Notes under the pieces: model-generated
What the model saw: only the letters and a program-made list of their open reading frames with translations
Database searches by the model: none
What the model was told of the DNA's origin: nothing
Shown here: positions 11,006-64,000 of the stretch, piece after piece
How the letters are laid out: each line of letters begins with the position of its first letter
Position numbering within the stretch: position 1 is the stretch's first letter
Assembly (NCBI GenBank): GCA_037447655.1
Contig: JBBHKE010003506.1
Coordinates: 94,585-158,584 of the forward strand
From: Zygnema cylindricum
Taxonomy: Eukaryota; Streptophyta; Zygnematophyceae; Zygnematales; Zygnemataceae
Length of the DNA: 64,000 nt
Reading direction: 5' to 3'
Position numbers and translations under genes: made by a program

Positions 11006-11870
11006 ACTCAGGCGCAGGTTTAATTCCTACGAATCGCATATTTATTATAATAAACTTGCCTGTCCATCACAGACGGGCAGCCATGGCCATCTTTCTCTAC
11101 CTCTCCGAGAGCATGCAACTTCCAAAAAAACAAAGTTCAGGCCATATGCAGATTCAATTTTTCATCATTCAACATTGCACGACGTAACACATTGAAAAAA
11201 CAAAACAAAAACAATCACATTAAAACAAAAAAAATATACATTTATGTCCTTTAACTATTTTTACTCTAAATCTTCTTCCCTTCTTGCCGTGGCGTCGGTA
11301 CAGGCGCAGGTTCAATTCCTACGAATCGCATATTTATTATAATAAACTTGCTTGTCCATCACAGACGGGCAGCCATGGCCTTCTTTCTCTACCTCTCCGA
11401 GAGCATGCAACTTTCAAAAAAACAAAGTTCAGGCCATATGCAGATTCAATTTTTCATCATTCAACATTGCACGACGTAACACATTGATAAAACAAAACAA
11501 AAACAATCACATTAGAACAAAAAAAATGTACATTTATGTCCTTTAACTATTTTTACTCTAAATCTTCTTCCCTTCTTGCCGTGGCGTCGGTAATGGCGTC
11601 TTCTGTGATTTTTCTTATAATAAACTTGCCTGTCCATCACAGACAGGCAGCCATGTCCTTCTTTCTCTACCTCTCCGAGAGCATGCAACTTTCAAAAAAA
11701 CAAAGTTCAGGCCATATGCAGATTCAATTTTTCATCATTCAACATTGCACGACGTAGCACATTGATAAAACAAAACAAAAACAATCACATTAGAACAAAA
11801 AAAATATACATTTATGTCCTTTAACTATTTTTACTCTAAATCTTCTTCCCTTCTTGCCGTGGCGTCGGTA
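11006..11870. repeat. Three direct repeats of about 290 bp
   Basis: Units start near 11006, 11300 and 11616; the third is partial at its left end. Each contains gcagccatggcc, ctctacctctccgagagcatg, a cDNA-like stretch around gccatatgcagattcaattt, and cttcttcccttcttgccgtg. Copy A has a single unit at about 6840-7100. The spacers are far too long for a CRISPR array. Confidence 0.85.
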
Positions 11871-41400: not shown

Positions 41401-44058
41401 CCCAAGTGCCTTATACAAGCAAAGTTTGTCATATTGCAAGTGCCAAAGTTAAAGCAATTCCAAAAGACAATCAGCGACCATCAATTGTTATCGCACGGAC
41501 ATAAGACAAAACAGACTTTACCATACTCAAGGCAAAAAGTTAGGCGATTGGTTCCAGCAGGAATCAGAGCCACAAGTCCTTCTATGGTACACTAGTCAAC
41601 AACAAAGTTCTGAATGGATGTGAAACGTCTAACTTTGACCTGGTGACTTAAATGCTCAGCCCGTCTGTTGGGCCTGAACTAACATCCTACTGATAGATAA
41701 CAACAAGATCTACGAGCAATCCCTAAGGCTGCATGCCGTTCCACAAAGAACCCCTCCGCTAGAGCTACATAGAACAGATGTAATGTAATAGAGCGGCCAA
41801 CTTTGCACCGGACTCACTCCGCCGTTCAACCTCCGTTGACTGTGAACTAAAGTGCGTAGTGCTCCAAAGTGAAAATACAAAGAGCTGATCTGGCTAGTTG
41901 TCCTCCCCTCCTTCCTACGATAGAGTCCATACAAGGTGGAATGAGGCCGCGGAACTCCTGGGAGTGTGCAAATGTGCCGAAGATGCACACGAGCTTGACA
42001 TCCTCTATAGGTCCGGGAGCGAACATGCCCTCGGTGTCCTAATGATATAACTGATGCACTTTGTTGGGCTCTGGTAACCCACTTTGGCTTATCTTTCCTC
42101 CGGCTTGGGCCAGAGATGTCGCTCTGACTCTGGACGGTATGCTGGTTGCAATGTCAAGAGATTGGGTGGGCGGATGGCGTGAGATTGAGGCCATCACTTG
42201 TGGCTCTCGGACTGAGGTCGAAGAGCCGCTCTTGGTAACTCAGTATTTCAACGACCCCTCCCACTAGACGTACGATCTTGGTTCTATCAGTTGTGGCTAC
42301 TCGCTGCACCAACTCCTTAACCTTCAACTCACGGAGATTGTGAAGGGCTAAGATTTCTTTCCGACCTGGCCGGGTAGGATTTGCCAGTATCTCTGGATCC
42401 ATGTACATTTCATCTGTCAGGGATTTGGATCCGATATAGCGCTTGACCTCGAGAGGATGACCAGGGATGGCTTCTTTATTAGCCAAACCCTTCTTAGGTG
42501 ATTTGGGAGATATCTCCGCGGCCTGAACCTTGGCAGCCTTGGACAATGTAGGAAAATTCTCGAGAGAAAAGACAAGCGGAGGTGGGGCAGTCTGTTTCCT
42601 CTCGGGCTGTTTTGGGGGAGTCTTAGCCATAATGGCCGGATGCATCATTCCCTTAAGAAATTGCTCTATGTTTAAAAGAGAGGAAAAGGGGATTGATTCC
42701 TCTGGTACTTGTGACTTTTCTGTGGTGGAAACGTATCCTGACTACCTTGCTCCTCACATCCGATTTTCGCAACCCCTTTTTCTTGAGCTTCTCCCCCTCC
42801 CATGGAATGATGATTGATGGAGAGAACTTGATCGACTATTGGTAAAAAGAACCTTAACTCCTCCTTAGATGATGAGGTTTTCTAAACTGAAGTTCGTATC
42901 CCCTCTAAACCAAAGGAGAAGGTTGTTGTTTCAATACTGTGACGGTCTGGTGAAAGTCTAACAAAGTTATTCTCAAAATCCACTATTTTGGTACAAAAGA
43001 TTGTGGTTATCGACCCCGAAGGAAAACCAACCAAAGCCCCAAAAATGACTACCAAAGAAAGAACAAAGATACTTCCACTTAGAATAAAGAAAAGATAAAA
43101 AATAGATATGATGTCTCAGAATTAACAAAATCACCTTGCCCAGGAAAAAAAATAGAGAATAAAGGTAGAATGTGGAATGATAGCAAGCGAGCTCAACCTA
43201 CCCCCAAAACGTAACGTTGACAACAAGAAGAGACGTAATCTTTCCCGTTTACACCAAAACAGGTAAGGCCTCCTTGACTCCTCGGTTTCCGCAACTCGGA
43301 ACTTGCAAGACCCTTCTCGGTTTCCAATAGACACCAATCCCAAATCGCCGAAACAGGAAAGATAGTGCCAACTACCCAACCAGACTACGACTTCCAATAA
43401 GGACAAATGTAATCCAAGATGGCAATAGGGTCACAATCACATACCAAACAAAAGTTCTCCACAAGAAAGTTTGTATACAAGCAATGTTTCTCCTACTGAC
43501 AATACCGAAGTCAAAGCAATACCAGGAGCCAATCAGCGGCAAGGAATTGTTATCGTACGGACATAAGACAAAAAAGGTTGTACTACACTCAGGGCAAAAA
43601 GTTATGCGACTAGCTCCGGCTAGATTGGAAGCCAAATGTTATTCTATGATACACTCCTAAGCACAAAGTTATGAATGGACGTGAAATGCCTAACTTTGAC
43701 TTAACATAATAACGCTCTACCTTTCTGGTGGACATGAACTAGCCTCCTACAGACAGCCAACAGCAAAATGCACAAGATTATCCCAAAAGTTATGTAGCGT
43801 TCCACAATATAGCCCCCAAAGTGACAGGTGGAAACAGGTCGCATGTAACAGAAATGGTAATCTGGAAACATAATAACTACGTCTTCCGGCCTCTGTTAGG
43901 CGCAAAATAAAGTGCGTTCCACTTAGTTTGGAAAATAGAAGGATCTGCTCCGGTAGGGTACAATCTTTCCTCCGTACTCGGATGACTTTACAGGGGAGAA
44001 AGGGCCCGGACATCCATGGTGATCTAAAGAAGTGTCAGTAAAGCCAACGAGCTTGACA
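41400..44058 (-). mobile_element. Internally deleted LTR retrotransposon, inverted relative to the main element
   Basis: Two related LTR-like segments in minus orientation, about 44058-43470 and about 42000-41410, both begin TGTCAAGCTCGT and share many later blocks (for example the ctgttctatgtagctc / ctgttacatgcgacct region). Between them lies only leader sequence and a gag N-terminal fragment (42648-42154). LTR divergence is visible by eye, so the insertion is old. No protease or polymerase is present. Confidence 0.65.
42154..42648 (-). pseudogene. gag N-terminal fragment of the deleted element
   Basis: Reads LVFSLENFPTLSKAAKV and later NLRELKVKELVQRVATTDR and VGGVVEIL. The plus-strand element has the matching DLHELKVKKELVQRVARTDR and VGGVVEIV near 45460-45550, so both belong to one family. 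The fragment ends near 42154, close to its 3' LTR. Confidence 0.75.
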
Positions 44059-44824
44059 CACTTAGAGGAAAACAGTGATTATGAGGCACTTTTTAGAGAG
44101 GTGGTTTAATTAGGAGTCGTGGTAATGGATAATGGGCCATTTGCATAACTTTTTACTAATAATGTGGATTTTTATTTTTATTTTAGTTTTTTATTGATAG
44201 GTTAATACATTTACTTTTCTTTTATCGCAATATGCAGTATACATTTTGTTTCTTTTGTTGACGTTGAATAATATATATCCCTCTTTCAATTTCTATTTTC
44301 ATATTGTTTACGATACTTGAATGGCCAAAAATGTGGATGTAATGTATTTGTAGTTACGGTGTAAATTCGTATCAATGTTTGGAGTATCAAACTCCCATTC
44401 AGCGACAACACATTGTGGTCGTCCATTGGTCGAATGAGAAATATACCATTCAGCAACGACATTGCATCATCGCTGGATGGCATAAATTATAGTATGACAT
44501 AAAGACAACAAGGATAAGACAGACAGTGATATGAAATAGAGAGAAAATGTGATAGAAAGGATCATAACTAAATGAAAATAATGGGATAGAGACGAATAGG
44601 AAAATGGAGAAAGAAAAATTAAAAATGTGAAACATAAAAACACAAGTCAGATAATAGGAGAGCAAGATGGTCGGTTATTATGGTTAAGTTCAAAGTTAAA
44701 CGTAGATGAAGATTAGGGGAAAAATAATAATGTGATGAAGAAATGGATCGCGATATCTTCTATTCACATAATGTCGGTGGTGAATGGTGAAAAAGTCAAA
44801 CATTCCATTGAGCGACAAGACGTT

Positions 44825-45155
44825 GTCAAGCTCGTGTGCTTATCAGGCACATCTTTATACCCTTAAGGATTCCCGACCTTTTCTCCCTTGTACGGTCCTC
44901 AAAGTACGGGGGAATGAGCGCACCAGGCCGGACCAGATCCTTGTATTTCCTAAACTGAGCGGAACGCACTTCATTTCGTGCCTAACGGAGGTCGGACAAC
45001 AAAGTTCCACTGTCTCAAAGATTGCAGTTCCGTTACATAGTACCAGCTTCCGCTAGCTCTAGTGGGGGGTACATTGGGGATTGCCACTTAAACTTTCAGA
45101 TTACAGTTTAGATTATGATATGACCTGTCTCTAGCAAGTTAGTTCAGGTACAACT
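44825..45155 (+). repeat. Truncated 5' LTR of the plus element
   Basis: Starts TGTCAAGCTCGTGTGC like the minus-strand LTRs and follows them through ctccttgtacggtcctcaaag and agcggaacgcactt to ttagttcagg, with internal deletions. Gag-like codons begin right after, so the LTR 3' end and primer-binding site are missing. The 766 bases between it and 44058 repeat cattcagcgacaaca-like words. Confidence 0.65.
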
Positions 45156-47097: not shown

Positions 47098-48901
47098 TTC
47101 ACCAATTCTGTAGAGGAAGAAAAGGAAATTGGGGACGTCCGGATCTTTGCAGGAGATAGCTCGGGGATAGCCTTTTCAGATTTCGAGTTGTTGTGGAAAT
47201 CTTTCACACAATTTGAAATCAATAAATACAGGGGAGGGGCCATTCCGGATTGACTTCGAAACCACCCTCTTCCCCATGATGGTCAACTACCTTTCTGGAG
47301 GGGCGTTGTCGGCCAACAAGGAGCGTCAACCTCTTTTGATGGCTCTTATCATCAAGATCTCGGATCTGGCCCTTGATGCCGTTGTTTTGCAAGCGGAGGT
47401 TGACTTGTCCGCGGCTACGGTAACCACTGTGACTGCTTTCTTTACACAGGATATGAAACTGCAAGCACAAGGAAGTACATATGTTAACCATCTGCAAGCC
47501 ATTCAGGCAATAACCTGCATATGTGCTAATCCCAACCCTTGCACAACTCTGCTGAATATCTTGAGACTCCTCTACACAGAGAGGAACGAGTCCGCAATCA
47601 TGGAATTCGCAGAATTCCGATGTTTGAAGAATGAGACTTCCCAGACTCTCTTCAACCGACTCTCGAGCCATTGCCAGAAAACAAAACTGTCAATGATTGA
47701 CCTTCCGGCAATGGCAACTAAATACTTCATTGCTGTCCGTAATTCATTCGGACCGACAGGGCAGAGTGCTCAAGATAACTGGATTGCCGGACAAGCCGTT
47801 CAGGACGTCAACCCCTCCGCCAAAGAAATCTCCCTAGTGGTAATGAAATTATATGACCACTTTGTCCACAGTGAGGCAAGGGAGAAGGCCGTGACCGGCA
47901 AAGCCCGATCGAATTTTGTAAGATTCACAGGGGAGATCTCATTGAATGAGGAGGAACATGCTGAACTTCAAGCTTTGCGGAAGCTTAAAGGGAAGCAAGT
48001 GGCGTACAGTGGGTCACAACCAGCTATGGGAGTAGAGGAGCGAGTATTTCTCTATAATTGCATGAATTGTCAGTAACCGATTCATGGGTGGAAGCATTGC
48101 ACCCAGAAACGTAAACCGGAGTTGGCTTTGAAACTTAAAGAATGGGAGAAAGAACGGGCAGAAAGGACCTTAAAACAGCAAGAAAGGCTCAAAATATGGA
48201 GGGGAGAGGACAAGACACCGGAAACCAAAGAGACATACTATCCAACTCCCCGGAGCGAAACCACTAATATGTCCCAATCACAGTTGTGGCAAATCAAACT
48301 CCAAAAGGTTGATGATGCTCAAATCTCCAACAAAATTCGGAGTAAATATACCACCCAGGGTTCAAAGTGCGAAGCATGTGGATTTCTGGGGCACAAGGAA
48401 GGGCAATGTTTCCAAAAGAACAAAGTTCCCAAGGAAATGATGCAATTTGCTTTGTTTACTGGCGAGGGAGAACCGGCAGTCAACCCTCTCCCACTTCAAC
48501 TTCTTTACCCTTGGGGGCGCCAAGTTCTTTCTACACCGGAGAGACCTGAACGAATGCCCGCTGTTCCGGCAAGGCTTAGACCGGAGATCATCATACAGCA
48601 GCAGAGTTAGCAACTGGCCGCAATGGCTGCAGTGTTGGCTGCTCTCCGCTTGGGATCTTATTCTCGACCTGCTCCTCTCACAGCAGCACAACGACTCCAA
48701 AAGCAGAAACAAGAGTTGTTGCAAAAGCTCGCGGAGCTTGAGCTTCAAGGCACAGCGAGTGCAAATGATGATGATTTATTGAGCTGGGATTTGGAACCCC
48801 CAAATGCCCATCATGCCCAAACCTTCCTCACCGGGGCTTGGAATGTTGGGGTGGGAGACAGCCATCGCCAACTCCGCAATTCAACCTCTATGCAAAGATA
48901 G
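47098..48901 (+). pseudogene. gag capsid and nucleocapsid (zinc knuckles)
   Basis: A capsid-like helical region (about 47100-47900, with FSDFELLWKSFTQF at the start in another frame) is followed by two CX2CX4HX4C knuckles. The first, CMNCQ..H..C, is interrupted by TAA at 48074-48076. The second is CEACGFLGHKEGQC at about 48370-48410. The frame from 47213 stays open to 48901 apart from that stop and TAG at 48608-48610. Knuckles bind element RNA in particle assembly. There is a likely frameshift before the protease frame. Confidence 0.8.
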
Positions 48902-49098
48902 GACAGAGATCGTGTCAGAGGGACCACAACCGGAAGGCAGCTAGTCCTTTATCATTTACTCCCAGAGCCGTGATTCTGAACAGCGACGTCGGCCTCAGAA
49001 TCAAACCAAATTATCCTCCATCTCTTACCACCAAACATAAATTGCCTCCCGGTTTCGAGAATTACTAGAAAGAGAAACAGCAGAGGGAAAAGGAATTA

Positions 49099-50046
49099 GT
49101 GGAACAAGAGAAGAAGGACAATCAAGACTGGTTTGAGAGATACATGGCAAAACGCCTGGAAAATGACACTCTCCAAACACCTCCCATTCTAGATTCCGGA
49201 TCCGAAAGGGAGAACGAAGGACAAGGTCAGGACTTGCCGATATCGGATTCATCCCCATCCTCTCCGAAAGCTACTCTGCCATCCTCCAAGCCGGCTGTCA
49301 TGCTGGTCCGGCACCTCATGCCATACGCTTTCACGCATGTAAAGACACTGGCATCCTCCCACAACCTACCCAAGAAAATCCTCATTCAGGCATTGGGAGA
49401 GGAAATTTACTCTGGAAAAGTGGAAGTCAACAGGACCACTCCGCCAACCACATTCTTTTTGTCCGCGGACTCAAAAACCCCTATAGTGGATAGGGACTAC
49501 AAATCCTTATCAGTGGCTTTTATCTTAAACAGGACCGGTAACTTCAAGCTTAACAGGTATGGGGGATATCAGGACGCTGTGGTCGATACCAGAGCACTAC
49601 CCAATCTCATCACCACCTCCGCTCTGCAGAAAATGCCCGAAGAACTCCGGCCCGAAATCTGCCCAAGCAACATCTGCTTAAGCACCGTAAGCAGCGGCAG
49701 TTAACGAGTCCATGGAATTATCAAGGCCATGGAAAACAAACTTTCTGATGACGCACGCCAGCGGGTAAAGATTGAGCTTCCCTTCCTAGTGGTGGAAGGG
49801 ACTCAATTTGAAATTCTATTGGGAATGACAACTTGGACCAGATTAAATATGAGTTTGAGCGTTTGGAAGGAGCAATGTATAGTTCGGGACCCCGGAAATC
49901 CCGAAGGAACCAAAGTGGTGGTTCCTTTGGATTTATGGAACCGGGGGAAGACCAATGTCCCGGTAGCCGGATGCTACCCAGTGTATACTACATCATCCCC
50001 GACGGAACTATTTGTTAGTTCCACAAATATCGCCGCAGAAATCTAG
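49099..50046 (+). pseudogene. Retroelement aspartic protease region
   Basis: The frame contains GGYQDAVVDTRALPNLI at about 49560-49610, which aligns with the D-[ST]-G-A active site of retroviral-type proteases, and later FLVVEGTQFEILLGMTTW, typical of the conserved ILG region. The catalytic Gly is Arg here (aga for gga), which should inactivate it. TAA at 49702-49704 and TAG at 50044-50046 also interrupt the frame. The same frame runs on into the methyltransferase. Confidence 0.8.
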
Positions 50047-50100
50047 CAATTCCCCATTTCCAAGCGGTGAGAAGAAGAATACAAGAATAGATTACTCCAG

Positions 50101-51255
50101 GTGGCAAAACTCCGGCGGGGAGTGGATCAAGCTTTCTCGGCCTTAACATTAACGGAAGCCGTTTCTGCAGCACTCTCAAATGCTTCCACACCCAAGGCCA
50201 GCAACGAGGGGTTCAATCGACAAGTGGTGTCATTGGCAGTCCCCGATTCCGGACTGCGTATTTTATCCCTATTTTCGGGAATTAGTTCCAACTTGGAGGC
50301 AGTTTTATGAGCCGGATATATGGTAGAAGTGTACACGGCCGTGGAAATATCACTCGAGGCGCGAGCTGTCTGCGAGCACCGGCTCCACCAGCTCCATCAC
50401 CTATATCCCTAAAAGTTGCCAGTGACAGCATTTTCCAAAGCTTACCGAAGTCTTCTCCACAATGTCGACAACATTATGGCGCCCCACCTAGCCAGTTTGA
50501 GAAGAGTGGATTTGGTAATGTCAGGCTGGCCTTGTCAGGGATACTCCCTAGCGGGAGAAGGAAAAGGACGTCAAGACCGCAGAAGTGGAACATTTTAGAG
50601 GATGATCCAATTGATCATGTGGCTTCAACAGCTCAAGAGCACACCGGTGGGGTACGCTATGGAAAATGTACACCCGGGGGATGATAAAAGAAAACAGGTT
50701 GGTGACAGTTGGAATCACTTCACCCAGATTCTAAGAGCTCCCTTGGTTTTCAACGCCGCGCAAATGGGATCCCGCGCACACAGAGTAAGGGCATGTTGGA
50801 CTAATATGATCCCGCTGCCAATACTCCGGCAATTGTTAGATAAGCAAAAGCCAGACCCGAGGAATTCCGTGCAGCAAATCCTTGGAGAAGGCAGGATGGC
50901 CACCACGGTGACGCGACATGACCGCTCACCTTTCTTTCGGTGTAACCAGTCGGGACTACCACGGAAGGCACTCCCGACTTTGGCTTCTTTCCCTCACTGT
51001 CACGCTTATCAGAAAGGAGCAGCGGGGATGATTTTTGACAGTACGACTGGAATCTGGACAACACCAACAATTGCGGAACGGGAAACGACGATGGGATTTC
51101 AAAAAGATACCAAGGCAGCACCAGGAATTTCAGACCTTCAAAGGTGCAGCCTAATTGGGCAAAGTATGGATTTGAATTCAATCACATGGGTGATCAAGCA
51201 TGCACTCGCCTTTTCTACTCTCAAGTCCTCGGAGTCCTGGGCTATTTACCTTTAA
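50101..51255 (+). pseudogene. Cytosine-C5 DNA methyltransferase domain within the retrotransposon
   Basis: One frame carries the ordered motifs of C5-methyltransferases. Motif I is LRILSLFSG (about 50254-50280, SAM binding). Motif II-like VEVYTAVEIS follows. Motif IV is SGWPCQGYSLAGEGKG with the catalytic Cys (about 50521-50565). Motif VI is ENV (50662-50670). Motif VIII-like GSRAHRVRACW is at 50767-50799. The PTIAERETTMGF segment and the motif X-like RCSLIGQSMDLN lie at 51067-51170. The Cys-Gln-Gly-type motif IV resembles Dcm/DNMT1-type enzymes more than DRM/DNMT3. The domain is about 335 residues from motif I to the end. In-frame stops at 50308-50310 (TGA), 50410-50412 (TAA) and 50596-50598 (TAG) break it, but the frame is otherwise continuous from the protease and ends about 40 bases before the RT frame. 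It is therefore part of pol, not a separate gene. Target preference cannot be read from sequence. Confidence 0.88.
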
Positions 51256-51292
51256 GCTCCTCAGTTGTTAGCGATGCAGGCAACTTTGCAGC

Positions 51293-52981
51293 TTGAGGGG
51301 GGGAGAGAAAGGAGAAGAAGAAAAATTCGCATTTCACCACCGTAGGTTTTCCCAGTGGGGGGGGGGCGGCGGCTCAGATTGCTACGGCTTAGCAGAAGTT
51401 GTCAGCTGTAGCGTCCTAGCTGGAGGGGTAGAGGCAGATCCACCAGTAGGATTGGAATTCGACGTTAACCTCTGGGGTAGACCGTCGGAAGCTTGGGTTG
51501 CCACAGAGCCTGGGAAAATGGATTGGACCCTTCGGGAGCAGTTGGATCCTCAACAAAAGGCGCGGCTCTCTGAGTTATTGGCCGAAAACAAACAGGTTTT
51601 CTCATGGTCAGAAACAGACGTCAGTATCTACAAAGGAACCCCTTTCCGAATCGATTTGATCGATGAGACGGCGACTGTTTGGCAGAAGCAGTATCCTCTC
51701 AGCTTCAAGGAGAAGGAATTCATTACGGCTAAAGTCCAAACGTTGGTGGAAGCCGGATTGGTTTAGGAAAGTACAGGTCTTCACAGGTTCGCTTCCCCGA
51801 CAGTTCTGCCACCCAAGAAGGACTCGTCCGGGAAGACTGTAGATTTCCGGATGTGTAGAGACTATCGCATGTTGAACACGACAACCATCTCTGACCGGTA
51901 TCCGATGCGGACCCTGGAAGAAATATTTGAATCCCTTGCCGACGCCACTATCTTCTCCACTCTGGACATGAAAAATGGTTTCCACCATATTGCCATGGAA
52001 CCGAAGCATAGGGAGAGAACCACATTTTGGGCCGGTTCTCGACTTTATGAATGGATTTACATGCTATTCGGACTCAAGAGTGCACCGGCCAAATTCCAAC
52101 GGGCAATGGACGAAGCTCTCCGGGGGATCGATTGTGCACGGTGCTACGTTGATGATGTTATTATATTCTCCAAAATTTTTGAAGAACACCTGGAGCATGT
52201 TCAGATCGTTCTCATGGCACTCCAAGCAGCGGGCTTGAAATGCCACCTTGGCAAAGGGATCTTTGGAGTACAAAAAATCATTTACCTCGGACATGAGGTG
52301 ACTCGAGGGACTGTGGGTCCCCACATGGTCAAGGTGGCAGCCCTTGACGCTCTTCCCCCACCGCAGGACATCTCGGCCCTTCGCACTTTTCTGGGTCTGG
52401 CCAACTACTATCTGCGATTTATCCCTGAGTTTAGTAGTCACGCCAAGCCCCTCAACCAGCTATTGCGGAAGGACCAGGAGTGGCAATGGGCGGAAGAACA
52501 ACAGATCTCCTTCCAGTTCTTGAAAGACGCTTTGAAGCAACACCCCGTGCTCCGAATACCTGATCACCAGAGGCCTTTCCTCCTTTACACTGATTGGAGC
52601 AGGTTTGGATTGGGAGTGGTTTTGGCTCAAGTTCATGATGCGCGAGCTGAATATGTTGTGGCCTACGCTAGCTGGAGCAACAACAGGGCAGAGGGGAATT
52701 ATAGTAGTTACCACGGAGAACTACTCGCAGCGGTCTCGGCATTCCAGCATTTCCGACCTTATTTGTACGGGGTTCATTTCACCCTTATTACCGATCACGA
52801 ACCACTGAAATGGATCATGGAAAATAGTAAGTTGACCGGCAAACTCGCTAGCTGCGTTCTTATCCTGCAGGAATATGATTTTAACATTGTTCACCGAGCA
52901 GGGGAAATCCATGGGAACGCCGATGGACTTAGCCGGAATCCCGACCCCTCTTACCATGGATTCAATCGAGGCTCGGCATGA
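51293..52981 (+). pseudogene. Reverse transcriptase and RNase H
   Basis: Reads LSELLAENKQVFSW and TPFRIDLIDE, then (after TAG at 51764-51766) FASPTVLPPKKD, DFRMCRDYRMLN, FSTLDMKNGFHHI and the catalytic CYVDDVIIFS near 52138-52165. The thumb and connection have TFLGLANYYLRFIPEFS. RNase H follows with LLYTDWSRFGLGVVLAQ, HGELLAAV and ITDHEPLKWIM. All fit Ty3/gypsy. The frame breaks near 52960, where another frame continues (DSIEARHDEDPEI). Core catalytic residues are intact. Confidence 0.95.
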
Positions 52982-54440
52982 TGAGGATCCGGAAATCAGT
53001 CTGGGGATCATCCGAGCCTCCTCCGCCTTTATCTGGCTTCCCCAATCTGAGGGGGGGCTCTCAGCTTTCTCGGCAAACGTGGAGGGGCAGGCACTTATAG
53101 CGGCCAGACGTAAGGATATTTGGAACGATCCCGAGGCTCTCCAATCTTTTTTGTAGGGGGGCCTCTTCCCCACCTGACGGGAACTCAATTATCTCGAGTG
53201 CAGACCCGAATGGCGGCGTACGATTAGGACAGGGGGGTTTTTTCTCCGGAAATGGTCAGACGGCATAAGGAAAGTGGATCCTCCTCCCTCAAAGCGAGAA
53301 ACTCTGATTTCTAATCTCTATCAGCAATGTGGACACTTCGGGCAAAAGCGTACCACTTCTCTGGTAACAGGCTCTTATTGGTGGCATGGGTTGCGGACCT
53401 AAGTTAACCGAATTGTGCAGACTTGCTCCTCATGCGATGAAGTAAAGGCAGCTTTTGACAAAAAAGGCGGGACCGAGCTTCATTCGCTTCCTATCCGAGG
53501 GATGTTCTATCGGTGGTCGCTGGATCTTTTGGGACCTCTTAAGACTTGCAGGCGGGGGAACCGCTTCGTTCTTGTCATGATAGAACATTTTTCTAAGTGG
53601 ATCGAGTTGGTGGTTTTGCTCGGAAGGAGTCCAAGGCAATTGCAGATGCCTTTTTGCTGAGAGTTTTAGCACAATTTGGGGCGCCTGCGGAAGTTCTAAC
53701 CGACCAAGGCTCTGAATTCGCTGGAGAATTTTCTAACCTCTTGGAAAAATGTCTGGTCGATCATCGGCTGACCAGCCGTGACCACCCGGAAGCGAACGGC
53801 TTGGCTGAAAAGTGCGTCCAAACAGTGAAGCTGTCACTACGAAAATATGCAGTTGAAGAAGATTCGGGGGAGTGGGACAAGAGAGTGCATTGTTTATGCA
53901 TTTGTCCTAGGGTTTGTTTATGTCGATTATTCCATCAAACCTTAGATGTTGTCATAGGGTTTATTTATGTTGATTATTCCATGAAACCCTAAATGTTGTT
54001 TGTTGTGTCTGTGTATGTTAAATGGAGGATGCATTTCAAATGATTGTTCGTCGACCTATTTTTGCTTAGCTTTTTGCATGATAGTTTGGGTGGCTTCTGC
54101 TGTCTATTTTAGACCAAAGAACAACACCTCTCGCCATGGGAAATTTGCAAGCGGCTCAACACCGAGATCAGTTATGGTATTCTCAACGCCGGAGCGGGAG
54201 TTATGTGCCCCGCAGCGACGATTTGTACCTGGGGACTTTGTATATCAGATGCAACAGAAGAAGGACACGTTCGATATTTCTGCCGGGAGGGTAATTTTGA
54301 AAATGGTCGAAGTTTCCAAAAAAGGGGTTCTGACATTCAAAGGCAGGGATGGTCGAAGAATTAAAGAGAATCAGATCAATGTTGCCCCTTGCCATCTCCT
54401 GGGATTCGAAGACAAACCGAACTTCCACCTAACTTACTTC
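52982..54440 (+). pseudogene. Integrase, frameshifted and interrupted
   Basis: HHCC-like residues appear in pieces (HFGQKR, CSSCDEVKAAF near 53420). MFYRWSLDLLGPL and FVLVMIEHFSKWIEL (53500-53615) are followed by a frameshift into ESKAIADAFLLRVL and the core LTDQGSEFAGEFS and HPEANGLAEKCVQ (to about 53880). A foreign stretch (about 53885-54115) follows. The C-terminal region resumes with RFVPGDFVYQMQ, GRVILKMVEV and INVAPCHLLG at 54210-54410. That APCHL-type tail differs from the chromodomain class seen at 4888-5580. Confidence 0.85.
53885..54115 (+). repeat. Insertion in integrase with two tandem 47-bp units
   Basis: Units 53909-53955 and 53956-54001 both run from agggttt to aaac(c)cttag/aaaccctaaatg. 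Each starts and ends with an inverted agggttt/aaaccct pair. The rest of the insert is unrecognised. Confidence 0.65.
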
Positions 54441-54600
54441 GCCTACCCTCCTTCCTGTTCATCCACTTGCCATGGGTCCTCCCCGCTGACCGACATATTG
54501 GCTTGCAATCAGTGTGGTTAGTGTTGGCATTCATGCTGTCTCCCTTCCTCTTGGGAGCCACAGCCTCTACCCTCTAACACTAGGTTCTGTGGGAAGTGCG
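54441..54600 (+). pseudogene. PHD-finger-like cysteine/histidine cluster at the polyprotein end
   Basis: In the integrase C-terminal frame: CSSTC, then ILACNQCG, a stop (54519-54521), CWHSCCL, a short Pro/Leu stretch, and RFCGKCEW. Spacing fits the zinc-binding pattern of a PHD finger (C..C, C..C, WH..C, C..C), except that the first pair is C-x3-C. Known: PHD fingers bind histone H3 tails. Degeneration and the first-pair spacing leave room for another zinc module. Confidence 0.5.
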
Positions 54601-54643: not shown

Positions 54644-54657
54644 AAGAGGGGGGGAAA
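54644..54657 (+). other. Polypurine tract
   Basis: aagagggggggaaa lies just after the coding end, where plus-strand priming occurs in LTR retrotransposons. The sequence after it (ttgggatatcag) does not resemble the 5' LTR start. 54660-55140 shows nothing recognisable. Confidence 0.6.
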
Positions 54658-55154
54658 TTGGGATATCAGCCTGATTACCGAGACCCAAATCCCTTTCCCC
54701 GGTCAAGGGGGGGAAGGAAACGGGGGGGGATCACTTTCGCTTTCCCCTTTCACTCTTCCTTATTCCCAGTCTGGGCGTCTCTCCTATTTTGCATGCATAT
54801 CTATGGGAGGGATGTGGGCAGCAGCAGGCATGTTCATCATTCTTAGGAGCATTCACATTTTGGGGTTTATTTGCAAGACTCCGATGCTGACGACTCCGGG
54901 TTGTGGACCCTTCCCTTACGTTACTCAGGCACGCTCGACAGTACCGAGCATTGAAAACTGTAGGTGTTCAAACATGGATTTAAGGCAATAAGCTTAAAAG
55001 ACAAAAAGGCAATTTTCACCATCGTCGCAAAAAAGAATATAGAGAGGTGGACAATATTGTAGTTGTTCGATATAAGTTTAAAAAACAACCGGTGAATGTG
55101 AAATCCAATGAAAAACACATTTTTTTTATAAGGGTGGTTTCAAAATATTTTATC

Positions 55155-56870
55155 CCTAAAGGGGTGCGCCCATGCAACCGCTACTTTGAAGTGGTACTTT
55201 GTATGTTAGTGAAGATTCTCCGTTCTACTTCGCATAGCGTTCCAATGTGGGCACATGTTTCCCCCGCTGCCTATTTTGAGAAGTTGGTGCCTTGTTGCCT
55301 CCACTCTCGTCTCTCGTTTTTTGGTTGGGGACACTCTTGTTCTTCGTAGTGTTTTCCCTCGTCTTTCGGGCGGCGTGTTTGCCTTATAATGGTCCATTTT
55401 GGATGTGTCATGTTCTATTCCTCCTGCTGATGTCGCGGACATGTCGATTCTTTCCACTCGTGATACGATATCAGTTCCGTGTGTCCAAAAATTCATTTTT
55501 GGTCGGGCTATCGTCGTCGTCAAGACTGACAACCTTGAGGCGCTTCCTTCCAATTCTTCCCGTGCACGCTTTCTATCTCGTGGTGGACCTGTTTCCGTAG
55601 CATGGTTATTGGCTACACTTATTTTATTCGCCCTTACATTTCGCATGTGCTGAATTCTCCACGACCTTCAAGTTTTTGCTTCGCCTCCCTCGTCCATCTT
55701 TGATTAGCTCTCATTTTTGCTTGTGTGACCGCATTCTTAAGCCCAACGAAATTCTCTTGCTTTGTTGTTCTTGCGAAGGCGAGTTCATTCAGGCGGACAA
55801 CATTATTCATGACACCATCGCGACTATTGATACGGAAGGGGGATTTTTTAGTATGTCGGGGGGGTTTCCCATAATATTATTTCGCGTCGAATTGGTATTA
55901 TACTTCTCGATGGTGCACGTCGTATATTTGGTGGCGTTGAATCCTACGTCGGATATAGTCGTCAGTAAAACAAGTCTACATATAAGAATGGTTGCTTATG
56001 ATGCGGCTAGAAAGAGGGAGACTATTTATGCCCATTGTGATGTTGAAGATGGCTTTATTTTGATGGCGGTCGAGATATTTGGTTGTTTTGGTGTGACTTT
56101 ATACGCGTTTTTCAATGTCTGTGGTCGACTCTCGTTTGAGGACATGGGAGCCCTCCTTCAATCCTTATTTTTTTTTATCGATTTTTCATCTTTGGCTTTC
56201 CAATGAGTTGAACCTTCTATCCCCCGTTTATCGTCTATTGCGGTGATGGATCGTCCGCTTATTTCGAAACTCCTTCCCCATGCTCCCCTGGATTTTGGAT
56301 TTTAGGACTTACACGGTTGCTTTTTATATTTTTTTGTTCGTAGATTTTTAGTTATGTTGGGGTTTGGTTGGTCCATTTTGGTTTTCACACTCTCTTAGGT
56401 GTTTGTTGCTTCTTTGAGTGTCTTTGTTTTAGCTGCCATTTTTGTGTGTTTGTTGCTTTTGCCTTGCTAATCCTTTTTGTTTGCTTCCCCCCACGTGTAG
56501 TTTTCCGTTTTAGCATTGTTGCCCATTTTTGTCCCCATGGAACCAGATAGCTCACCATCGTGGTTTTTGATAAAGTCGGTATTTCATAATATGCGGAACC
56601 GAAATTGATACCTTGAAATGTGGCGGTTGTAAACATGAGTAAAACTTGTGACGGTTGTAGAGGATTACGAAACTTGCAACAATTGGTGACTTCTACAAAA
56701 ATAGCGACGGTTGTTGACGCCTAGTTTTTTTTTGACAGTGTAATGGTCTAATGTTTTGTGATAATGTGGCGTCATGCTCACTCGTGACAATGTCGACGAC
56801 ATTGAATTAAGAACTTTACGCCATGGTTTCCCTATTTTGCTCTGTAGTCTTTTCTCACTTGGCTTACCAT
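55155..56870. mobile_element. Composite copy of the GGGTGTGCC-type DNA element with inserted sequence
   Basis: The left end ggggtgcgcccatgcaaccg with ctactttgaagtggtac and gtgaagattctc matches the family at 25095 and 58452. Interior family sequence (cttgtgacggttgtagagg, gcgtcatgctcactcgtgac) reappears at 56640-56850. Between about 55230 and 56560 lies sequence absent from the other copies. Confidence 0.45.
55676..56206 (+). CDS. Unrecognised ORF inside the composite element
   Basis: 176 codons beginning MLRLPRPSL, with CDRILKPNEILLLCCSCEGE near the start and two hydrophobic stretches. A partly overlapping ORF at 55399-55653 and a minus-strand ORF at 55646-55206 also exist. Composition is less repetitive than its surroundings, so captured host sequence is possible, but I recognise no family and no splice or start context favours it. 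Confidence 0.2.
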   Translation: MLRLPRPSLISSHFCLCDRILKPNEILLLCCSCEGEFIQADNIIHDTIATIDTEGGFFSMSGGFPIILFRVELVLYFSMVHVVYLVALNPTSDIVVSKTSLHIRMVAYDAARKRETIYAHCDVEDGFILMAVEIFGCFGVTLYAFFNVCGRLSFEDMGALLQSLFFFIDFSSLAFQ

Positions 56871-56984
56871 TAAATTACACCGAAAGGTAATCAAAATGTG
56901 TATTTTGCAAAGCTCTTTCAGTTCACACAAATATTGTTGTGTTTCATTCAAAGAAGTATGAGATAATAGCGTTAGTTTAGTGTG

Positions 56985-57074
56985 GGAGGGAGAGGGAGAG
57001 GGAGAAGGAGAGGGAGAGGGAGAGGGAGAAGGAGAGGGAGAGGGAGAGGGAGAGGGAGAGGGAGAGGGAGAGGC
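56985..57074. repeat. (GGGAGA)n hexanucleotide tract
   Basis: About 15 units of gggaga with occasional gagaag. The Pro/Leu reading on the minus strand is the repeat. Confidence 0.95.
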
Positions 57075-57537
57075 GAATACAAAGAAAGCTTTTGGAAAGG
57101 ACCCATGAATGAAAGCTGAAGTCCAAGACTCCTAACAAATTTTTTTAGGGACATGCGCGCGATGGGCAAAAAAAAACAATAGCGAGTACTGTACTCTCCT
57201 TCATGCAAAACAATTTCATATTAGTGTTGCACTTTTGTAAACGTTTTTTCAATAATTGTTCGATTGATATGGTACTTTAATGATCGTTTTTGTTTTTTTT
57301 AGGAGTTCATTTGCGTCCTCGTGGGTCGAAAAGAAAGACAACGCCAAAATGAACATAAATGACCACAAAATTGGAGTACATTCAAAGTATCAAGTTGGTG
57401 TTAATTGTACTCTGGGTAAAGCAACTTGCTTGTACGACAATTTTTTCGTACGACAAAAGATTTTATGGTTGGGGATTAAAGTTTGGAGGTAAACGACAGA
57501 AAAAACCCGATACTTTAACACACGAGCACACCTCTAA

Positions 57538-58452
57538 GGGTACTTTCGCATGTGCTAAATTTACAGTTATTTTCTGTCGTTTTCCTCCATAACTTGGAAA
57601 AAAACGAGAAAATGCAGCCGCACCAAAAAATAGAAACTACCACTGTACAAGTTGCGTTACCTTGAAATTTTATATGTATTAGGGTTTGTGGTCTAGCGTG
57701 ATGCAGTCCTTCCAGCTCATCTTCAAACTTTATATAAAACCACCTCGCGAGGTGATTTTAAATAAAGTTCCGTGAGGTGAGAGAATATGCAGATGTTGTC
57801 GCGCGTCCGGAAGTTTTTGACAATTTTTGTGCGCGGAGTACCAAAAAAAAAACCCATTGCACGTTTCCAGCCTGTGCGTGACATTTTTCTGTGCGTTTTT
57901 TTCCGCACAAGGGTCGTGGAGGGGGTCTCTACCAACGGACGCCATTTCGCAAAAGCCCGTGAAAGCGCCTCTCTCTCTCTCTCCCTCTCCCACTACCGCG
58001 TTTATCTCATGATTCTTCCACCGAAAAACGTCAATAATGGTATCAAATGAAATATTTATAAAAACCATTTATTTCGACTATCTTTGGGCGTAATTTGATG
58101 GCAAATTGAGTGAGAAAAGACTAAAAAACAAAATCGGGAAACCATGGCGGAAAGTTTTAGAAATTTGTGACGTCGGCGCTGTCATAATTTGAGCGTGACG
58201 TCAAAATGTCACAAACCCCAAACATCTACAATGTAACATCTACAATGTCACAAGTAGCTAGACGTCTACAACCGTCGCTATTTTGTAAAAGTCATCAATT
58301 GCTAGTTTTTAGTCGTCTACAACCGTCACAAAATACACCCACGTCTACATCCGTCACAATCTAAAGTAACGATTTCATTTCTTTACATACGAATGCTCTG
58401 AGAATCTTCGAAAGTTACAAGACTAAAGTTTCGGTTACATGCGAAAGTACCT
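57538..58452. mobile_element. DNA element with GGTACTTTCGCATGT ends
   Basis: The left end GGGTACTTTCGCATGT and the right end, reversed AGGTACTTTCGCATGT, are inverted repeats flanked by TAA (57535-57537 and 58453-58455). The interior has blocks shared with 25095-25730 and 55155-56870. The 3-bp TAA duplication again suggests the PIF/Harbinger superfamily. No transposase ORF. Confidence 0.65.
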
Positions 58453-58489
58453 TAAGCGTCAAATGATTTTGCTTACGCCACTCCCTTCC

Positions 58490-60215
58490 TTCAAATATAT
58501 CTCCCCCTCTTTCGCCCTCCTCCACTCCCTTCCCCCAGATGGGCCCAGCTCTGTCCCTCTCTTCCTCCTTCCCCCTCTCCCTTTTCCATAATATTTATTC
58601 TTTCATTTCCCACTCTCCCTCCCTTCTCGACTCCCTTCGCTCAAAGGGGTCTCTTTTCCTCTCTCTCCACTCCCTTCCTCCACATGGGTCTCCCCCCACC
58701 TACCTCTCTCCCTTCCTTCTCCACTCCCTTCCACGAAATGAATTTCGTTCCCCCACTATCTCTCCTTCCCAATCCAAATTCCTTTCCTGAAGCAGGTCTA
58801 TCTCTCTCTTCCTCCCCCTACCTTTCCCCAAATGGGACTCTCTGTCACTCTCTCCCTATCCATTCCCCTAATTGAGTTTCCCTGTCTCTCTCTCCCTCTC
58901 TCTCTATCACTTCCGTATGGGTCTCCCACTCTCTCACTCTCCCTCCCCAATCTTCTCCCGAATGGGTCTAACTTCTCTCTCTCTCTCTCGCCCCCTCCCC
59001 AACTCCTTTTTTCCAAATTGGTCTCTCTCTCTCTCCCCCTCTCTCTCTCTCCCTTCCTTACTTTCCCACGCCCTTCTCTCATATAAGTCTCCCTTTCGCT
59101 CTCCCTCTACCTCACTCCCTCCCCCACTACCTACCTCACATGGGTTTCCCTCTCTCCCTCCCTTCCCACTCCCTTCCCCCACATGGGTCTCTCTTCCTCT
59201 CTAACTCTTCTTCTTTCCATCCCTTCCCCACTCCCTTCCCCCAAATTGGTCTTTCTCATCTCTGTCCCCCTCCCTTCCCCACTTCCTTCCCCCAAATTGG
59301 TCTTTCTCATCTCTCTCTCCTCCTGTCCCGTTTCCCTTCCTTCTAACGAGTCTCTCTCCGCCTCTCTCTCCCCTTCCCGTCTCCACTCCATTCAACCAAA
59401 TGGGTCTCTCCCCCTCCCCCACTCCCTCCCATCCCCACTACCTTCTCTCAAATGCTTTTCTTACCCCTCTCTATCTCCCTCCCTTCCCCACTCCCTTCCC
59501 CTTCGTTCTCTCTCTCTCCCTCCCTCCCCCACTATTTTCCCCCAAGATGTGTCTCTCTCCCTCAGTCTCAACCTCTCCCTCCAATTCTTACTCCTGTTCT
59601 CCCAAATGTGTCTCTCCCTCTCTTTCCCTCCCACCGGACTCCCTTTCCCAAACGGGCCTCTCTCCCTCTCCGTCTCCTTCAATGCCTCCTCAAATGAGTC
59701 TCTCTCGCACTTTTTCTCCACCTCACTTCTCCACTCCTTTTTCCTAAATGGATCTCCCCCTCTGACTCTCTCTCTCCCTCCCTCCCTCTCTCCCTCCTTT
59801 TTCCACTCCCTTCCCCAAAACATGTCTCTCTCTGTCTCTCTCCCCCCTCCCTTCCCCCTCTCCCTCCTTTTCTGACTCCTTTGCCCCCAACTAGTTTCTC
59901 TCCCTCTCTCTCCCTCTCCCTCCCTTCAAATGGGTCTCTCCCACTAACTTTTTCTCTCTCTCGCCCTTCCCCACTCTCTTCTCCCAAACCGGTCTGTCTC
60001 TCTCTCCTTTTCTCACTTTCTTTCCCCAGTTTATTCTCTCTCACTCTCGTCCCCTCCCCCCCTTCCAGTCCCTTCCCCTAAACTGGTCTATCTCCCTCTC
60101 TCTCTCCCTCCCTCATATAAAAAATAGGTTTTTTCTATCTCCCTCTCTCCCTCCTTTCCCCATTCCCTTCCCCCAAACTGGTCTCTGCCTCTCTCCCTCT
60201 CTACCTCTTCTCTTA
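58490..60215. repeat. Pyrimidine-rich minisatellite, about 1.7 kb
   Basis: Some 25-30 degenerate units of about 50-65 bp, each with ctccctcccttcccc, actcccttcccccaaa and tgggtctctctc. The plus strand is almost free of purines apart from the aaatgggt block. Many ORFs in all frames are readings of the repeat. Confidence 0.9.
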
Positions 60216-60680
60216 TTTATTTATTTGTCCATTCATTTATTCTTTTCTTTCTTTATTTTATATTCACATTCAACTGGGAAATGTATTGGGTTTCAGAAAA
60301 AGACAAAAAAGAATATGGAGAGATCAGTTAAAAACAAAACATGTAGTTATCAAAACATTTTTGGTAGCTTGATGGTGTTTTTATCTCAAGAAAAAAAGAA
60401 AAATAAAACATTTCAACCTTGCCTTCTCTATTACTTTAAGAATTCCTATTTTATCAAACAGAACGTACAACATAAAACTAAAACACACTAATTTGAGTTC
60501 CTCCAACAAAAATATCAAAGAAAAAAGTGAATTTTATAAACTCTTCTCTCCAACTACCCAAAAATCTCTTCAAAAAACTAGTGAAAAAACTCGTTGAAAA
60601 ATAAGACTCTTTCGTTTTTACATATCACATTTTTTTTTTTGAAAAAAAAACATTGAAACTTAAGATTGAAATTTGAGATT
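60216..60680. other. Downstream flank of the bestrophin-like gene
   Basis: AT-rich with A runs; probably its 3' untranslated region and spacer. No other gene recognised. Confidence 0.5.
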
Positions 60681-60685
60681 GAAAT

Positions 60686-63600
60686 CTATGACAAATTTAA
60701 GAGAAGATTCGCTTCTGTTCCAGTTGTTTCGATCTCTTCTTCTCTTACAGGAACATCTTTTTCTTTTGAAAGTGGTTTCATAAATTCTAATTCATCTTCA
60801 TAAGAAGAATCTTTGTTAATTAAAAGAACCGATTCTTCCAAAAGTTTATATGCGACATCGAAAACCGCAATATCCAATTTGTCGCTTCCGAGAGGATTAC
60901 TGTAAAGAAAAAAAAAGGGCGAAGAAAAGGGAAAAAAAAGGGTGAAAAAAGGAAAAAAAGGGTTAAAAATGAAAAAAGGGTAAAAAATTGGAAAAAAAGG
61001 ATGAAAAAAAGGAAAAAAAAGGTGAAGGAAAAAAAAGGGTGAAGAAAATTAAAAAAAGTGTGAAGAAAAGGAAAAACAGGGTGACAAAAAGGAAAAAAAA
61101 GGTGAAAAATTGGAAAAAATGGGCGAAGAAAAGAGGGCGAAGAAAAGGGAAAAAAAGGTTAAGAATTGGAAAAAAACGGTGAAGGAGAGGAAAAAATAAA
61201 AAAGCAGGTGAAAAGAATGGTAAAAGCCGAAAGAAGGAAACTGAGGGAAAAGAGAAAAAATGAAATCGAAGGGGAAAAAATAGAATAAATAAATGGAGAA
61301 TCTAAATTTCAATTGTTTCAAAATATATTTCAACTTCGATTTCAATTTGAATTCTATTCGAATTTCCATTCAAGTTCCATTTTCAGTTATAACTTTAAAC
61401 TTAATTTCAATATCAATCTAAGCTAAGTTTCTTTTTTAATTTCAATTCCTTTTTAGGTTCTGATTCTAATTACTTAGGTCTAAATTTCAACTTCAATTCC
61501 TGTCGTAAGTTTCAATTTCAGTTCAAGTTTCTTTTCAAGTTTCGTTTTTAATTAAGTTTTTAATTTTCCATTTCGTTTCCATTTCGATTTCAATTTAGGT
61601 TTTTTGATTTGATTTCAAATTCCATTATGATTTCGATTTAATCAACAATGTCAAATACGACTTTAGTTTCAAAATTTCAATCTCGATTTTGAGGGAGAGG
61701 GAGAGGAAGAGGGAGGAGAGGGCGAGGGAGAGGGAACGGGGAAAGGGGAGGGAAAGGGATGAGAAGGAGAGAGGGAGAGAGGGAGGGAGGGAGGGAGGGA
61801 ATGAAGGAAGGAACAAACCTCATACTATTTCCGACTTCTCGAATTCCCAAAAGACCCACGAGAATCAAAAAGAAAACTGGAATCGGCCAATAGGGCGACG
61901 CGAATGCGAAAACATACGCCAAGATGAAAAGATAAACGAGAAGAACAAAATTGAGAAGATGGTAATATGCAAATGGCCTGGAAAAAGACAAAAGTTACAA
62001 AAGAGTCAAAAGTTACAAAAGAGAAAAGTTACGAAAGAGACAAAGAATGTCAAACTGTCGGAAGAAATGTCAAAGAAAAACTGATGTTCAAAGAGACCAA
62101 ACATGCCAAAAAAGAAGGAGAAAAACTGGAATTTGAACAACTTTCAGAGGACAAAAAAATTGAAAAAAAGAAAAAAACCATATCGAAGGAGTATGCATAA
62201 ATAAATAAAATAAAAACAAGAAAAAACTGCTAAATGAACTGAAAAAAATTACTCGAGACATATTAAAACATAAAAGAAAACAAAAAAACAAAAAGAAAAA
62301 ACAATTGATGTCAGAAAAAGGAGAACAACAAAAAGAAACAAAAAAAACAACAGGATTGAAAAAAAAAAACAACCAATAGAGGGAGAAGATAGGGGATAGG
62401 GATAGGGATAGGGAGACGGAGCGCGTGGGAGGGGAAAAGGGCGAGAGAGAGGGAGAGGGGTACATACACCGGACCACTCGCAAAAGTATAAAGACCGTCC
62501 AGATTCGTCCGAATCTCGAGAAGTTTTGTCGTAAATAAACTCGCTATAGGACTTGTAATGTGTTTTTTTGTCTCTTGTGCCCAAACTCCTCTATTAAGCC
62601 AAAGGAGAACTTCTTTAAAAACCAAATTTCCGGCTCCAATGTCCTCGAGAGTTTTCAGGTCATTTACCTATTTTTAAACCCATTTATTTCCGTATTTAGG
62701 GTCAGGTTTTTGAGCAGAAGTAATGAACAAAGGGATAGGAGGAGAGAGGGAAAGAGAGTGAGGGAGAGAGAGGAGAGAGAGACAGAGGAGAGAGAGGGTA
62801 GGGAGGGAGAGAAGGGGGGGAGGGAATGAGAGAGAGGAAATGAGAGGGGGATGTTTTTGAGAGGTAAAAGAAAGATTTTTGGCGGGTTTCGAGAGAGTTT
62901 TAAGCAATGTTCAAGAGGTTAAAAAGGGTCTTTTTAAAAAAATAAATGAAGGAACAGCGGAACGGAATTTTGAGGAGCGACAAGAAAAATTCTCTCGTAA
63001 AGCACTTGGTAAAGGGAGAAAAAGATAAAACCTCATTTCGTGTCTAACAAAAACAAAATTGCATCCGGTCATTACCACAAAATAATTAAAATCAATAGGA
63101 AAAAGATTCTGGAAAAAAAAAAGATTCAACATAAAAAAGACAACCATTGACATCCACATCCACATGGACATCATCATCATCACATTGACATTATCGACAT
63201 TGACATCGACATCCACATCATCGCCATTATTGACTTCATATCCCCCACATTTCACACCACCAACACAACTAACATTGACATCTCCATCAAAACCAACATC
63301 TCCTCCCACAACAACCTATCCCACTACAAAAAACAACAAAAAAAAAACAAAAAAAACAACAAAAAAAAAAACAAAAAAACAACAAAAAAACCTCACCTGA
63401 CTTTCCGTCAACAACCTACTATACCTCAAATACCACCACGCCCACTCATTAATATTCTCTTCACGATTATGCGGTAAGCACGAATACGACAAAATATGTA
63501 ACGCATTCGCCAATTTGCACAGATAATGACGAACGAGTCGCGCTTCCGGAAAAAGATGATCCGCCAGGTGGACTCGTAATAAGACAAAAAGTTCCCCAAA

Positions 63601-63723
63601 AGTGCCACGTGTCGTATTAACATTCGCCGATTGAGTTAAAAATCGAGAATACGTTTGATTTAAATAAAATACGAGAACGAAAGTGATAAGACTTCCCGGG
63701 ATTGCGACGTACGAAGAGTCGAT
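60686..63723 (-). CDS. Bestrophin-like (UPF0187/RFP-TM) anion channel, 5' part outside the window
   Basis: Four exons join in phase: 63723-63397, 62667-62468, 61977-61819 and about 60899-60686, giving 299 visible residues. Exon a has IPGSLITFVLVFYLNQTYSRF, the family's early membrane helix with N-x-x-Y-x-R-F, then LVRHYLCKLANALH. Exon b has RTNLDGLYTFASGPV. Exon c has PFAYYHLLNFVLLVYLF and a second hydrophobic helix, then GIREVGNSM. Exon d starts SNPLGSDKLDIAVFD, matching the bestrophin P-[FL]-G-x-D segment after the last helix. The C-terminus is short and acidic. The donor of exon b was placed at GT/GTATGT because it restores the VPFAYYHLLN reading. Known: bestrophins form pentameric chloride or bicarbonate channels; plant thylakoid VCCN proteins are distant members. 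Location here is not visible, as the N-terminus is missing. Confidence 0.7.
60900..61680 (-). repeat. Low-complexity intron of the bestrophin-like gene
   Basis: On the plus strand 60905-61260 is a degenerate ggaaaaaaagggtgaaaa array; 61300-61680 is a tttcaatttcaattcga tract; 61690-61800 is gagaggga repeats. All non-coding. Confidence 0.75.
63140..63300. repeat. Imperfect GACATC/CATCAC tract in the first visible intron
   Basis: Trinucleotide-based gacatccacatcatcatc repeats giving Met/Asp/Val-rich readings on the minus strand. Confidence 0.75.
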
Positions 63724-64000
63724 CTAGAGAGAGAGGGAGAGGGAGGGAGAGGGAGGGAGAGGGAGAGGGAGAGGGGGAGGGGGGAGGGAAAAGGGGAGGG
63801 AGTAGTCAGTCGGGTGTTAAGCTAGCTTTCCACCTCTACCACTTTCTCTCCTTCACTGCCCCCTTTTTCTACCTCACGACTGTTTCTCCCTTTCCCTCTC
63901 TTCCGCCCTCATCTTCCCTCCCCCTCCCTCCCTCCCTCCTCACTTGCCCTTTCCCCTTCCCTTCTCCCCGCCTTCCTCTACCTTTCCACTCGTCTTCCCT
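63724..64000 (-). other. Intron sequence at the window end
   Basis: Ends at the acceptor ctctctctctag before 63723. Purine tract at 63725-63800, then pyrimidine-rich on the plus strand. No exon recognised. Confidence 0.5.

Follow-up and report, generated by a model that had tools for sequence, protein, structure and literature searches.

A stretch of 64,000 nucleotides from Zygnema cylindricum (contig JBBHKE010003506.1; the whole stretch is called the window below, and positions without a locus name are those of the window) carries a decayed Ty3/Gypsy retrotransposon on the forward strand, at 47.2-54.7 kb. Between the protease and the reverse transcriptase (RT) of this element lies a decayed C5 cytosine methyltransferase (MTase) at 50251-51252. 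The features of the element, followed by those of a relative beside it, are given here; L038 is an open copy of the same family elsewhere in the genome.

47171..48073, plus strand: gag-like open frame (capsid region), named gag from its position
48077..48607, plus strand: frame with a zinc-knuckle-like CxxC...C motif (zf-CCHC_4, E 0.042, a weak match under the cut-off)
49069..50043, plus strand: protease region with one internal stop (49702)
50044..50046, plus strand: in-frame UAG at the protease/MTase boundary, followed by CAA TTC
50047..50250, plus strand: linker with one internal stop (50068)
50251..51252, plus strand: C5 cytosine MTase domain, DNMT3-type, with three internal stops (PF00145; DNMT3 is the best match in PDB)
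51272..51763, plus strand: pre-RT linker, an open frame that aligns in family copies
51767..52978, plus strand: reverse transcriptase and RNase H (RVT_1 5.1e-23, RT_RNaseH_2 1.1e-30, RT_RNaseH 3.6e-30)
53403..53989, plus strand: fragments of the integrase, spread over two overlapping frames (match to rve, E 1.4e-5, 25.7 bits, short of the cut-off, 32.6)
53902..53999, plus strand: 47-bp tandem repeat at the end of the integrase piece
54456..54599, plus strand: PHD finger remnant with one stop, seen in translation (PHD match of the L038 counterpart 17.5-21.8 bits, under the cut-off of 24)
54645..54657, plus strand: polypurine tract, read from the sequence and, by analogy, the likely plus-strand primer
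41412..44058, minus strand: 5' part of a related element that lies next to the main one and runs the opposite way (43729-44058 against 44824-45152, 70%)

With X written at each stop, 50251-51252 matches the DNA_methylase profile PF00145 (E 5.5e-8, 33 bits, cut-off 22) and, short of the model's cut-off of 100.65, also TIGR00675 (3.3e-10, 40.1 bits). The piece at 50413-50595 exceeds the PF00145 cut-off by itself (25.1 bits). Motifs I (LFSGIS), IV (PCQ), VI (ENV), VIII (HRVR) and X (GQSMDLNSI) follow one another in the frame of the protease, just as they had been described in a first-pass annotation which proposed a cytosine MTase inside a Gypsy pol region; the profile search that it suggested and the family copies both agree with that proposal. 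Two of its measurements are refined here. It had let the MTase begin at 49099, a start that takes in the protease, and it had placed RT within about 40 bases, which holds for the pre-RT frame (51272, in another frame) but not for the RT core, since RVT_1 begins only at about 51812. The C-terminal piece 50599-51252, searched by itself, matches nothing in Pfam and no MTase in PDB, and its homology shows through the family copies. Internal stops fall at 50308, 50410 and 50596, with another at 51253; the frame changes before RT, and there are further breaks in the protease, linker, integrase and PHD finger. The predicted fold of the window MTase alone was useless (mean predicted local distance difference test score 40.7).

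Among solved structures the window RT is closest to Ty3 (4ol8, 5.1e-70; Ty3 Gag-Pol 7q5b, 1.3e-69; next 8r0s, 2.4e-49). The gag-like frame found no Pfam match in the profile search, and a frame resembling it adjoins another RT copy (L066; 62.5% over 96 aa). The protease region has no Pfam match and no credible PDB match; its counterpart in L038 (2376-3212) has an Asp_protease_2 match (E 2.1e-4) whose 22.3 bits fall short of the cut-off, 24.3, and the window reads DTRA where L038 has DTGA. No relatives of the window copy were found in viral_contigs or genome_contigs.

The genome searched comprises 352,776,454 bases in 2689 contigs. It holds at least 123 matches to PF00145, all above the cut-off (123 scored of 782 first-look candidates), and at least 104 to the window RT (103 scored of 4331 candidates), which are 76-91% identical, the window itself excepted. 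MTase homology lies just upstream of RT in all 19 of the nearest RT copies (20 loci listed, one of them the window); their best MTase pieces are 61-75% identical, several being partial and one locus partly masked. Among the most diverged RT copies, of which 20 were sampled and one was dropped for a misplaced stretch, the MTase stands at the expected upstream site in 11 of 19. Pairing the two lists places a scored PF00145 match 1.2-1.8 kb upstream of RT at no fewer than 28 of 102 RT places, a lower bound because both lists contain the best-scored candidates only. The MTase is a trait of a large Ty3/Gypsy family, and the check for copies without the domain left the proposal standing.

Open copies fall into two lineages. 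In L038 (contig C1374, lineage A) the protease frame ends in a TAG (3213-3215), behind which a frame of 1520 aa continues in phase with DNA_methylase (48.9 bits), RVT_1, RNaseH, H2C2, rve and a PHD finger that stays short of its cut-off; another copy, on C544, has MTase and RT in one frame of 1525 aa. L100 (C1344, lineage B) is a single frame of 2394 aa that runs from Gag to PHD without a UAG, through a zinc knuckle and a protease, neither of which reaches its cut-off, and then DNA_methylase (44.4 bits), RVT_1, RNaseH, H2C2, rve and PHD (38.1 bits, above the cut-off of 24). Lineage B consists of L013, L014 and L100 (contigs C2678, C82 and C1344), and its MTase is 38% identical to that of lineage A (L014 against L038). 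The order protease, RT, RNase H, integrase is present in L100 and in L038, where the under-cut-off protease occupies the frame before the UAG. A listed open frame of 5743 aa at another locus (L027, C961) is doubtful because masked N reads as open, and 496 of 4191 bases there are masked.

By profile the element MTase is closest to DNMT3 and, as its motif order indicates, it lacks the permutation of DRM. When six open pieces, of which a single C1374 copy supplied two, are combined into one profile, the scores are 68.7 bits with DNMT3C, up to 68.5 with DNMT3A and up to 64.9 with DNMT3B. Other enzymes score less: HaeIII 38, HhaI up to 33, DNMT2 29.1, DRM 24.7 to 19.9 and DNMT1 up to 18.6. Motif order and these scores rule out a DRM-type (permuted) or DNMT1-type enzyme, and DNMT2 is less close by profile. 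In a tree of 13 rows the window copy falls on the same side as DNMT3A and the DNMT3-like MTases of phages, with HhaI, DNMT1, DNMT2 and two plasmid enzymes of Dcm type on the other (100/99). Inside the former group it is only loosely placed (47/77 at the basal node), and a pairing of the window copy with DNMT3A alone is not rejected (approximately unbiased test, p-AU 0.39). In a tree of 19 rows, with DNMT3A as its single DNMT3 and as the only typed reference row checked, seven element MTases of both lineages form one clade (100/100). The simplest reading of these sequences is that one MTase capture preceded the split of lineages A and B.

The trees also bear on where the enzyme came from. It is unlikely that the source was a phage-like or bacterial DNMT3-like enzyme and not a host DNMT3 gene: phage MTases do outscore DNMT3A in pairwise comparison with the window copy, but those phage rows were selected as the best of 482 records, and with more copies in the tree the element MTases join DNMT3A and not the phages, a weak join (69/90, long branches flagged) in a tree that holds no plant or host DNMT3.

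The MTase is under purifying selection. Ratios of nonsynonymous to synonymous substitution (dN/dS) were estimated pairwise by Nei-Gojobori, with a single best alignment per row, for 30 MTase rows and 28 RT rows, which allow 435 and 378 pairs. The MTase rows represent 27 places, as L015, L020 and L038 coincide and so do L018 and the window. Pairs were left out if they were saturated, had a dS no higher than 0.05 or shared fewer than 100 codons, which removed most of the MTase pairs. Across the remaining 143 MTase pairs the median dN/dS is 0.174 (quartiles 0.125 and 0.308), a value pushed up because decayed copies are included; 137 pairs lie below 0.5 and none reaches 1. In the 27 rows that reach these residues, the catalytic Cys is kept in 26, the Glu and Asn of ENV in all 27, and the motif VIII arginines in 26 and 22.

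The MTase may methylate the element's own DNA. An improbable alternative is that it is kept for something else, methylating RNA (the element's own genome or a primer tRNA) or binding nucleic acid in the particle. RNA methylation has been suggested for the DNMTs of LINE elements, and the Gypsy enzyme of Klebsormidium showed no activity (PMC5890265); the motif IV of lineage B departs from that of lineage A, and phage MTases and DNMT2 match the element MTase too. Against an RNA or binding role, the profile is far nearer to DNMT3 than to DNMT2 (68.7 against 29.1 bits), and the catalytic Cys and ENV are retained in nearly all rows.

The second recurrent trait of lineage A is the stop between protease and MTase. 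In pieces of 351 bases from 40 RT copies, an anchor downstream of the junction was found in 31, and all 31 have TAG; together with L010, L011, L012, L017, L038, L080 and the window, TAG is present in 38 of the 38 lineage-A places where the site was found. It is kept even in copies whose MTase is about half identical to that of the window or L038 (L012, 51%; a copy on C1100, 49%). The codon behind it is CAA in each of the 37 rows that encode Gln there and a stop in the remaining row, whereas another Gln close by, at +18, is encoded by CAG in 26 and by CAA in 5. The anchor left out TAG and included CAATTCCC, so this choice of anchor accounts in part for the constancy of CAA but not for that of TAG. 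Most copies read UAG CAA UUC, in which five of six bases fit the CAR YYA hexamer behind UAG that has been called essential for readthrough in plant viruses (PMC2754532). By this likeness the UAG context would work like a type I readthrough signal. Because the UAG is present in every copy where the site was found, the lineage-A MTase is probably made only by readthrough, an addition to the earlier suggestion that the enzyme is made and processed with the polyprotein, which otherwise fits the open copies. It was also considered whether the stops that arose by decay are enriched in TAG, as CHG methylation would leave them: the RT copies have 114 TAG, 50 TAA and 45 TGA, where the single-step routes to stops in L038 number 70, 45 and 30, and there is no clear excess.

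Lineage A could instead express its MTase-RT part around the stop, by internal initiation, from a spliced or shorter RNA, or with an unusual host tRNA that decodes UAG. The imperfect fit to CAR YYA speaks for this, but the idea is decidedly doubtful: the site is TAG in 38 of 38 places and never another codon or stop, CAA is fixed behind it, and the same parts are fused in one frame in lineage B. The 1520-aa frame of L038 has no TAG inside it, and therefore TAG is not sense there. As for the idea that a host MTase gene landed by chance in just one copy of the element, which the window copy alone could not exclude, it is ruled out for practical purposes by the same order in the 19 nearest RT copies, by the open frames of both lineages and by purifying selection.

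The PHD finger stands at the far C-terminus, behind the integrase. Vertebrate DNMT3 differs in this respect, its PHD-like ADD domain being placed before the MTase. Among 12 lineage-A C-termini the strict C4HC3 pattern occurs in six. Four more are visibly similar, of which two have wider spacing, one is interrupted by a stop and one is broken at its end, and nothing of the kind is seen in the other two.

Taken as a whole, the best explanation, which we hold to be reasonably likely, is that a captured DNMT3-type MTase in pol, gated by UAG in lineage A, methylates the element's own complementary DNA (cDNA), while the PHD finger steers integration. In lineage A most ribosomes would halt at the UAG and yield Gag-protease as the main product, and a minority would read through to give MTase-RT-RNase H-integrase-PHD as the minor one. 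Readthrough that yields a main and a minor product is a usual way in which retroelements control such ratios. The MTase would then be packaged beside RT in the particle and released by protease cleavage, with double-stranded cDNA as its nearest substrate. Its most likely action would be to methylate cytosines of the element's own cDNA, either ahead of integration or in the course of it, with the result that new copies would arrive pre-methylated: self-like, quiet and tolerated. The PHD finger behind the integrase would read a histone mark and steer integration. A more far-reaching version, which we offer tentatively and consider somewhat less than evenly probable, is that of an epigenetic kit in one polyprotein, in which an MTase writer and a PHD histone reader are joined to RT and integrase, a recoded UAG doses writer and RT together in one lineage while the kit is fused to Gag in the other, and the element methylates its own cDNA and chooses the chromatin in which it lands.

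Several observations weigh against this explanation. Motif IV reads ECQ in the three lineage-B rows where lineage A has PCQ, and the change may alter catalysis, the Cys being kept. RT is under much stronger constraint than the MTase (median dN/dS 0.031 over 250 pairs). Eight of the 19 most diverged RT copies have no MTase at the expected site; in one of these the protease, UAG and linker are seen, with the distance shortened, and in seven a stretch of 501 bases holds no recognisable element sequence, so that decay, deletion or true absence may each be the cause. Nine of the 40 junction pieces lack the anchor, one of them lying in the MTase and one in gag. The base that follows CAA UU is C and not the A of CAR YYA, and the PHD match of L038 stays below the cut-off. 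The DNMT3 of the Klebsormidium Gypsy element gave no methylation in yeast, a result that its authors call inconclusive (PMC5890265).

The ends of the element are less well marked than its middle. No long terminal repeat pair was found for the window copy or within L038. Shortly 3' of the polypurine tract, the window (54926-54939) and L038 (8018-8031) have CAGGCACGCTCGACA in common and diverge beyond it; this site is possibly the element's 3' end. On C1374 a 167-nt direct repeat, 81% identical, flanks the open copy with about 15.6 kb between its parts (L099:2589-2754 and L038:9184-9350); it may or may not represent a terminal repeat. The reversed piece at 41412-44058 has matches of 69-79% to L099, the 5' flank of another family copy, and may be a non-autonomous or truncated relative. 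Elsewhere in the window, 6869-10012 and 11644-14738 form a direct duplication of 3.1 kb (96.5% identical), and with it a long exon-like frame for a protein rich in Pro, Ser and Asn is present twice (8107-9594 and 12882-14330). Many purine-pyrimidine tracts of the GAGGGA/CTCTCCC type, at 56000-64000 and elsewhere, give rise to long spurious open frames such as 59087-59875. The profile search also returned a DnaJ match and weak F-box matches, which, with the overall character of the genes, would fit a plant or streptophyte alga.

The kind of element described here is already known, because DNMT3-bearing Gypsy elements have been published from Klebsormidium nitens (PMC5890265), in line with the precedent mentioned in the first-pass annotation. 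KnitGypsy-Dnmt3 (de Mendoza et al. 2018, PMC5890265) has an unrearranged DNMT3-type MTase in the Gypsy Pol frame, in many copies and under purifying selection (Ka/Ks < 0.2, against the median of 0.174 here). Location inside Gypsy Pol, lack of introns and purifying selection are all found in the Zygnema elements as well. KnitGypsy-Dnmt3 belongs to a different genome, the K. nitens assembly being of 104 Mb in 1,814 scaffolds (PMC9915684). It has DIRS-like repeats (PMC5890265), whereas no terminal repeat is settled here, and the UAG, the PHD finger and the second lineage are features of the present elements. No open-licence title or abstract opening that was consulted mentions gating by UAG, a PHD finger or a second lineage for elements of this sort, and the K. 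nitens elements may have these features too. Retrotransposon DNMT3s are known from streptophytes and dinoflagellates (PMC12344493). SymbioDIRS-Dnmt3 of dinoflagellates likewise has its DNMT3 in the Pol polyprotein beside RT (PMC5890265), but it is a DIRS element with a tyrosine recombinase, whereas the present family is Gypsy with a DDE integrase and Gypsy-type RNase H. For the DNMT3s of DIRS elements methylation of cDNA has been proposed, and two of them gave CG methylation in yeast (PMC5890265). The closest solved relatives of the element MTase domain are the vertebrate DNMT3A, 3B and 3C, with the same motif order; DNMT3A shares 57 identities with the window copy over 187 aligned residues. 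Suppression of an in-frame stop with a CAA-type context has its own precedents in the plant retroelement SIRE1 and in the type I readthrough of tobacco mosaic virus (PMC2829016, PMC2754532). In the plant Copia element SIRE1 the stop separates pol from env (PMC2829016), and the one described here separates protease from MTase-RT; the type I signal is UAG CAR YYA (PMC2754532), and the present one UAG CAA UUC.

The role of the Klebsormidium Gypsy MTase was left open in the published account (PMC5890265). The Zygnema family seems to have captured a tool that hosts use to silence such parasites. Cytosine methylation is a standard means of transposon silencing in plants, and an element that keeps an MTase under selection therefore inverts the usual picture of the arms race. 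At least 123 MTase matches, many of them in long open frames, and two lineages of UAG-gated and single-frame design allow natural comparisons of what the enzyme is for, how it is dosed and whether it acts jointly with a chromatin reader on the same protein. If the kit is real, each new copy of an element that carries it would arrive looking already silenced.

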